This document shows positions 14,989 to 55,623 of a stretch of 64,000 nt of DNA, one piece after another. Under the pieces are notes generated by a model that made no database searches, had not been told where the DNA came from, and was given only the letters and a program-made list of their open reading frames with translations. Position numbers and translations under genes: made by a program. Origin of the DNA: Microcaldota archaeon (lineage in GTDB: Archaea > Micrarchaeota > Micrarchaeia > Micrarchaeales > CABMGC01); contig JAJYOL010000004.1 of NCBI GenBank assembly GCA_021796225.1, forward strand, positions 41,026 to 105,025, read 5' to 3'. How positions within the stretch are numbered: position 1 is the first letter of the stretch; every line of letters starts with the position of its first letter.

Positions 14989-15063
14989 CGGGCATGACGG
15001 GATTTGAACCCGCAACCAACGGCTCCGCAAGCCGACATGCTATCCAAGTTACACCACATGCCC
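14989..15063 (-). tRNA. tRNA-Arg(GCG), no intron
   Basis: Minus strand: gggcatg-...-tcggc ttGCGga gccgt-tggtt-gcggg ttcaaat cccgt-catgccc-g; cloverleaf closes; 75 nt. Confidence 0.88.
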
Positions 15064-54451: not shown

Positions 54452-55507
54452 TCACTTCTGCTGCTCTTTGCATATGGTGCTGTTCGCATAGCATATTGCA
54501 TTGCTTGCCGTCTGTGGTATTGCAAGATAATTACAGTTCACAACTACTGTGGGGACCGCAGTTATGTTGTAATATGTTGCAAGAAGTGCCTGCGCTCCTG
54601 TCACGCCCGAACTTCTGTTTACGCACGAATCAAGTTCTGTTAGGTTAAGCCCGGCAGGTTCCGATATGCTTTGCAGCGTGTTCTGCGATATGTAATCGCC
54701 TCCGTATATGCTGTTTAAGGAATCGGCGAAGCGGCTGAAGTTTTTCTGGTTTGCTGCGCACATCATGTATTTTCCAAGGTATTGTGCATTCAAGTCTCCT
54801 ACTTGATTGGCTATGTGCTGATATGAGCTTCCGAATACGGATTCTATGGAGATGTTTACTGCATTTCCATATTTCGTTTCAAGACTGCTTATATTTTCCA
54901 GGCTCTTCACAGAACCGGGTGCATAGGGATCCATGAACCAGTATATGTGCATGGGTGACTTTACGAGGCATGATGTTTTTCCACCGATTGCCACTACGCC
55001 CTGTGCAGCTACCGAATCGTAAGTGCCTATCGGGCTTGCCAATTGTATCGACATGGATGCAAGCGTGGCATTGGAATCGCGTATCAATTCATAGACGTGA
55101 TATTCAGCCCCGGTTGAAGGCAAATACGTCGGTATTTGCACGTACCATTCTTTTACAGATGGCATATACGATACGGACATTGCCGATACATTGGTATAGA
55201 ATGGAAGCAATGAAAGGGAGCTGTTTGTCTGAACATATCCTGCGAGGAACGACTTGGCCAGTGCGCCTATCTGACTTTCGTTGTAATTAGTGGTGTTGGT
55301 TACGGTACCGTTCGTTGCCGTGGAATTTTGCTGGGTCGGAATACTTACCGGTTTGTAATAAGCCGAAGTCACAAGAAGAGCAATGAGTATCACAATCAGT
55401 ATTCCAAGCGTTATGTGTATGTTGTCCAATCCGCCGAATCCGCGCACCTGTTTGACAATCATGCCCTGGTTGTTTTCCACGCTTCTCTTTTTTGACGTCT
55501 TTGCCAT
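54452..55507 (-). CDS. Membrane-anchored thioredoxin/DsbA-like protein lacking the CxxC motif
   Basis: TM anchor; MHIYWFMDPYAPGSVKSLENISSLETKYGN and cis-Pro VPTVVVNCNYL. Confidence 0.75.
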   Translation of the reverse strand: MAKTSKKRSVENNQGMIVKQVRGFGGLDNIHITLGILIVILIALLVTSAYYKPVSIPTQQNSTATNGTVTNTTNYNESQIGALAKSFLAGYVQTNSSLSLLPFYTNVSAMSVSYMPSVKEWYVQIPTYLPSTGAEYHVYELIRDSNATLASMSIQLASPIGTYDSVAAQGVVAIGGKTSCLVKSPMHIYWFMDPYAPGSVKSLENISSLETKYGNAVNISIESVFGSSYQHIANQVGDLNAQYLGKYMMCAANQKNFSRFADSLNSIYGGDYISQNTLQSISEPAGLNLTELDSCVNRSSGVTGAQALLATYYNITAVPTVVVNCNYLAIPQTASNAICYANSTICKEQQK

Positions 55508-55519
55508 ATGAACACCAAA

Positions 55520-55623
55520 CGGGTCCGACGGGACTTTCATTGCCTGACACATACCTGGCAATTTTGAACCCGCGACCATCACCTTAGGACGGTGCTGCTC
55601 TATCCAAGCTGAGCTACGGACCC
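55520..55623 (-). tRNA. tRNA-Arg(CCU) with 29-nt intron in the T-loop (between positions 59 and 60)
   Basis: Acceptor gggtccg/cggaccc; anticodon loop gtCCTaa; T-stem gcggg/cccgt split by intron 55534-55562; canonical BHB. Confidence 0.9.

Follow-up and report, generated by a model that had tools for sequence, protein, structure and literature searches.

Non-canonical introns in archaeal tRNA genes are numerous in Thermoproteales and Thaumarchaeota (PMC8450103) and have also been found in Asgard archaea (PMC11291895). The thaumarchaeal introns underlie one of the two bulge-helix-bulge (BHB) models of tRNAscan-SE 2.0 (PMC8450103). Position 59/60 was already listed among the non-canonical intron sites of archaea in a 2014 review, which cites Sugahara 2008/2009 and Chan 2011 on such introns (PMC4090602), and T-loop BHBs are mentioned in PMC6379350. 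Splicing endonucleases of the epsilon2 type are reported to tolerate BHBs of relaxed form (PMC6379350, PMC12397907). Here, we describe a T-loop intron in a tRNA gene of a Microcaldota archaeon, located in a window of 64,000 nucleotides (the whole stretch of DNA analyzed), and its counterparts in the same genome, in relatives of its order and in other archaea.

An interrupted tRNA-Arg(CCU) gene

Positions 55520-55623 of the minus strand read as a tRNA-Arg(CCU) gene that is interrupted in the T-loop by a 29-nt insert between nucleotides 59 and 60 (GCGGG-TTCAAA, intron, T-CCCGT). The 5' part of the gene is GGGTCCG TA GCTC AGCTTGGATA GAGC A GCACC GTCCTAA GGTGA TGGTC, and the 3' part, including the insert, is GCGGG TTCAAA ATTGCCAGGTATGTGTCAGGCAATGAAAG T CCCGT CGGACCC G. 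The gene and the features used for comparison are as follows:

55563-55623, minus strand: 5' exon, positions 1-59, comprising the 5' strand of the acceptor stem, D-arm, anticodon arm, 5' strand of the T-stem and TTCAAA of the T-loop (ARAGORN cloverleaf)
55534-55562, minus strand: predicted 29-nt intron at 59/60, ATTGCCAGGTATGTGTCAGGCAATGAAAG (same-site inserts and intronless orthologues)
55520-55533, minus strand: 3' exon, position 60 to 73, TCCCGTCGGACCCG
54452-55507, minus strand: conserved ORF of 351 aa with its ATG at 55507, marker of the syntenic locus
14989-15063, minus strand: intronless tRNA-Arg(GCG), comparison gene (T-arm match to the spliced product)

When 55534-55562 was excised in silico, ARAGORN called the resulting 75-nt tRNA as Arg(CCT), with a normal cloverleaf in which only the uppermost pair of the anticodon stem, a G-A, deviates. 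The T-arm after excision, gcgggttcaaatcccgt, is identical to that of tRNA-Arg(GCG), and the mature tRNA would be predicted to carry TTCAAATCCC. The unspliced gene received no ARAGORN call and scored 21.8 bits with the Rfam tRNA model, below the cut-off of 29 bits. An earlier note on this DNA had proposed a 29-nt T-loop intron with a BHB, a 75-nt product and the T-arm identity with tRNA-Arg(GCG); its intron coordinates proved exact, the T-arm identity and the product length both hold on the sequence, and the relatives described below agree with it. Taken together, the evidence makes us highly confident that this tRNA-Arg(CCU) gene is functional and that its T-loop intron at 59/60 is spliced out through the BHB.

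The adjoining 351-aa ORF showed no Pfam match. Its ATG lies 12 nt beyond the end of the tRNA gene, and GGTG precedes the start. A longer, GTG-started version of this ORF (54452-55582), which would overlap the tRNA, was rejected as a start-site artefact, and the ATG at 55507 agrees with the relatives. The DNA upstream of the tRNA gene contains TATA-like, AT-rich stretches, which, together with the retention of the arrangement in 27 of 29 relatives, suggest that the tRNA and the ORF are on a joint transcript.

Anatomy and folding of the BHB motif

The predicted motif is of the 3-4-3 form, that is, a 4-bp central helix between two 3-nt bulges, flanked by outer and inner helices. All of its elements lie on the minus strand:

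55569-55573, minus strand: T-stem (outer helix), GCGGG (sequence)
55528-55532, minus strand: 3' strand of the T-stem, CCCGT (sequence)
55565-55568, minus strand: central helix, exon strand TTCA, T-loop positions 54-57 (sequence)
55536-55539, minus strand: central helix, intron strand TGAA (near-universal in the introns of relatives)
55557-55561, minus strand: inner helix, 5' strand TTGCC (sequence; covariation across relatives)
55540-55544, minus strand: inner helix, 3' strand GGCAA (sequence; covariation across relatives)
55545-55556, minus strand: intron loop (sequence)
55562-55564, minus strand: 5' splice-site bulge AAA, predicted cut AA/A (from BHB rules and intronless orthologues)
55533-55535, minus strand: 3' splice-site bulge AGT, predicted cut AG/T (from BHB rules and intronless orthologues)

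The probability that a random 29-nt insert would provide both the 4-bp central and the 5-bp inner helix is 1.3e-4, and shuffles of the actual insert gave 2e-4. Folded on its own, the T-arm reaches its energy minimum (-15.3 kcal/mol) with an internal loop where the BHB has its central helix; the bare BHB comes to -13.0 kcal/mol, with apical pairs left out. The other 59/60 T-arms of the genome likewise prefer the internal loop. The BHB claim is therefore based not on folding energy but on covariation, the conserved TGAA and the position of the insert.

The T-stem of the precursor would serve as the outer helix of the BHB. The invariant UUCA of the T-loop (54-57) would pair with UGAA of the intron, giving the 4-bp central helix, beyond which the intron would fold into the inner hairpin. 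The epsilon2 endonuclease would cut both 3-nt bulges after the second base and RtcB would ligate the exons into a normal 7-nt T-loop, so that T-loop modification and folding of the elbow would have to await splicing.

Comparison with relatives

When 98 relatives were searched with this gene as the query, loci of 29 relatives (L002-L030) were found, each with a tRNA-Arg(CCU) gene. In 25 of these an insert follows directly after GGGTTCAAA, at the identical position, while four (L017, L018, L025, L030) are intronless at 59/60. The inserts are 13-43 nt long and have scant sequence in common besides TGAA close to the 3' end; a few relatives (L009, L023) show a mismatch in the central helix. For the 28 distinct inserts of sufficient length for scoring, 89 of 112 possible inner-helix pairs are formed; after 5000 permutations of the 3' halves among the sequences, a procedure that ignores relatedness, the number was 54.8±4.4, with a maximum of 74. 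The recurrence of the insert at one spot in 25 of 29 relatives excludes chance, and a chance BHB is ruled out by this recurrence along with the pairing above permutation and the low random probability.

The intronless genes L017 and L025 each share 71 of 75 nucleotides with the mature tRNA predicted here and L030 shares 68 of 75, with the T-arm core common to all three; L025 also lies at the same syntenic locus. The 351-aa ORF lies next to the tRNA at 27 of 29 loci, among them the intronless L018, L025 and L030; these filled and empty sites are therefore orthologous. On a tree of the downstream ORF, whose deep forks are poorly supported, the three intronless loci require three changes, rather than the one that a single intron loss would imply. 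Intronless orthologous genes, covariation and conserved position thus support the assignment of the BHB, the intron and its predicted boundaries.

These comparisons also bear on two other ways of reading the insert. The intron could be real and spliced in another register, e.g., shifted onward by one base to TTCAAAA/TTGCC...AAAGT/CCC with A60 instead of T60; this would likewise leave a 7-nt loop, and relaxed motifs are within the reach of epsilon2 enzymes (PMC6379350). However, all intronless orthologues and tRNA-Arg(GCG) carry TTCAAAT, and only the 59/60 register has two 3-nt bulges flanking a 4-bp helix, which makes a shifted register quite improbable. Even less credible is a tRNA that works unspliced with an extended T-arm: the unspliced T-arm does form a stable hairpin fold, but with the insert retained, the elbow between T-loop and D-loop would be lost along with the site of TPsiC modification. 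Nor would there be any reason for a covarying BHB with its conserved TGAA, or for orthologues in which the site is precisely empty. Judged from the sequences, the 29-nt intron is almost certainly removed by the splicing enzyme of the cell.

Splicing enzymes

The earlier note had brought an ARMAN-type epsilon2 endonuclease into its reading, and the genome search bore this out. The assembly holds a sole tRNA_int_endo (PF01974) gene (C10:45915-46187), which encodes a protein of 387 residues. Residues 5-387 align to residues 5-387 of the EndA of ARMAN-2 (Candidatus Micrarchaeum acidiphilum; PDB 4FZ2/9W2K) with an E value of 7.5e-152 for 4FZ2. In this alignment, the catalytic Y236/H251/K282 (printed numbering) are identical, and the residues Y160/K161 of the ARMAN-specific loop (ASL) as well as R275 and W384 are kept. 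The alphaN-alpha-betaC units, all on one chain, match those of ARMAN-2 EndA from end to end. By sequence, the enzyme is thus a full-length orthologue of the ARMAN-2-type epsilon2 endonuclease. Both proteins have the catalytic triad, the ASL lysine and the bulge-gripping R/W in common, whereas the present enzyme is a diverged orthologue from another genome, whose activity on the tRNA-Arg(CCU) precursor is predicted. An RtcB ligase (PF01139) is also encoded in the genome.

Further introns in the genome and codon demand

The assembly comprises 789 kb in 15 contigs and is ~83% complete. We scanned it for strict BHB motifs (17,254), all of which were spliced in silico and then rescanned for tRNAs. 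Beside anticodon-loop introns, five tRNAs with an intron at T-loop position 59/60 were found, including tRNA-Arg(CCU); the genome BHB scan gave the other 59/60 genes, listed here with a tRNA-Leu:

C10:67924-68030: tRNA-Arg(TCT), 59/60 intron
C10:75421-75527: tRNA-Ala(GGC), 59/60 intron
C7:17881-17998, minus strand: tRNA-Ser(GGA), 59/60 intron and an apparent intron in the anticodon region
C14:76098-76213, minus strand: tRNA-Ser(CGA), 59/60 intron and an apparent intron in the anticodon region
C8:10858-10955, plus strand: tRNA-Leu(CAA), 13-nt intron fitting 58/59 (also at L052)

The motif of tRNA-Leu(CAA) is relaxed, with a GTTC/GAAC central helix and an inner helix that is almost absent; among genomes of the genus, its insert is conserved in position and variable in sequence. 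Two scan matches, one with a 118-nt intron in a tRNA-Cys and one with a 69-nt intron across two Arg genes, were judged to be artefacts. For a tRNA at C8:46682-46790 (plus strand), the intron that is removed decides between Lys(TTT) and Ile(TAT), and a 34-nt intron beside TAT seems the more natural choice.

AGA and AGG make up 60% of the arginine codons in 616 long ORFs; AGG occurs 13 times per 1000 codons and is used in 93% of these ORFs. Both AGA/AGG-reading tRNAs found, Arg(CCT) and Arg(TCT), have T-loop introns, and translation therefore depends on intron removal, unless the portion of the genome that the assembly lacks holds an intact copy. A second intact tRNA-Arg(CCU) gene, which the earlier note had named, together with silence of this locus, as a finding that would count against it, was not found in the ~83%-complete assembly. 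The same data bear on whether a chance insertion sits in a decayed pseudogene. Standard finders indeed leave it uncalled, but its exons are intact, it is the only CCU gene found for a heavily used codon, it is conserved across the order and its BHB is unlikely by chance. With the demand for AGG and the intronless orthologues that match at 71 of 75 positions, we consider a pseudogene ruled out.

T-loop introns across the order and in other archaea

The spread of T-loop introns was assessed with the pattern GGTTCRAA-N9..39-TGAANNTCC and a control in which TGAA was changed to AAGT. Of 165 genomes from the order, 139 contained the pattern and 7 the control. With a stricter pattern applied to named genomes, most of the matches listed fold, once spliced, as tRNAs of many isotypes; among these matches are Micrarchaeota, Woesearchaeota, Aenigmarchaeota, Nanoarchaeota, Thaumarchaeota, Thermoplasmata and Asgard groups. 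The statement of the earlier note that T-loop introns are rare is not supported by these data: this genome has five introns at 59/60 and one at 58/59, the motif occurs in 139 of the 165 genomes searched and in other phyla, and PMC4090602 lists 59/60.

The thaumarchaeal matches listed are mostly Glu(UUC) in Nitrosopumilales; a short tRNA-Glu(UUC) T-loop intron is common to Nitrosopumilales and other Thaumarchaeota among the matches listed (loci L115, L117, L118, L125, L127, L137-L139, L147, L153, L155, L165, L175 and L189). In a genome of the same genus (G005), the Arg(UCU) intron is identical to that of Candidatus Micrarchaeota isolate clean2166, which places the genus within Micrarchaeota. 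A contig labelled 'bacterium isolate Centralia_MAG_577' (L152) carries a tRNA-His with the same kind of T-loop intron and is for this reason probably archaeal or a mislabelled MAG. When introns of different isotypes were compared side by side by eye for signs of transposition, no clear copies between isotypes within a genome were seen; an ATAAAC start recurs, and one genome (G104) has two tRNA-Arg(CCT) copies.

Why one site may recur

What stands out in these findings is the order-wide recurrence, in which the invariant TTCA provides one half of the splice motif. The T-stem and the TTCRA loop vary little from one tRNA to another, so that half of a BHB would already be in place in every tRNA: the outer helix, most of the 5' bulge and one of the two strands of the central helix. 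An insert may then need no more than a small hairpin and a terminal TGAANN to be spliced. Such a ready half-motif would account for one site recurring across isotypes and phyla with unrelated introns. Tentatively, and with somewhat more doubt than conviction, we propose that the T-loop is a ready-made, Archaea-wide intron landing site where the half-BHB has led to repeated gain, loss and replacement of introns in many isotypes and phyla, and that splicing has become obligatory for reading AGA/AGG in the order.

Single-copy, heavily used tRNAs of the order escape simple finders, and tRNA sets and genome completeness may therefore be underestimated. The T-loop site also offers a natural series of introns (present, absent, diverged and minimal) for testing tRNA intron gain and the coevolution of introns with the relaxed epsilon2 endonuclease. 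In intron-bearing tRNAs, T-loop modification is predicted to come after splicing.

Comparison with known systems

Our literature search, with many subscription-journal papers outside its reach, found no paper on the order-wide pattern in Micrarchaeota. The 59/60 introns listed in PMC4090602 agree with the intron of tRNA-Arg(CCU) in position, in their BHB motif and in the predicted chemistry of the enzyme; the emphasis there is on Crenarchaeota and Nanoarchaeota, whereas here one site is used in several isotypes of a Micrarchaeota order. The T-loop intron of the Nitrosopumilales tRNA-Glu(UUC) has the same TTCA/TGAA core, but belongs to a different isotype and is shorter. Canonical archaeal introns at 37/38, several of which occur in this genome, share the BHB and the enzyme; they sit in the anticodon loop, in contrast to the T-loop intron of tRNA-Arg(CCU). 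This intron is therefore of a documented kind, and what is new is its regular recurrence at one site in the order.
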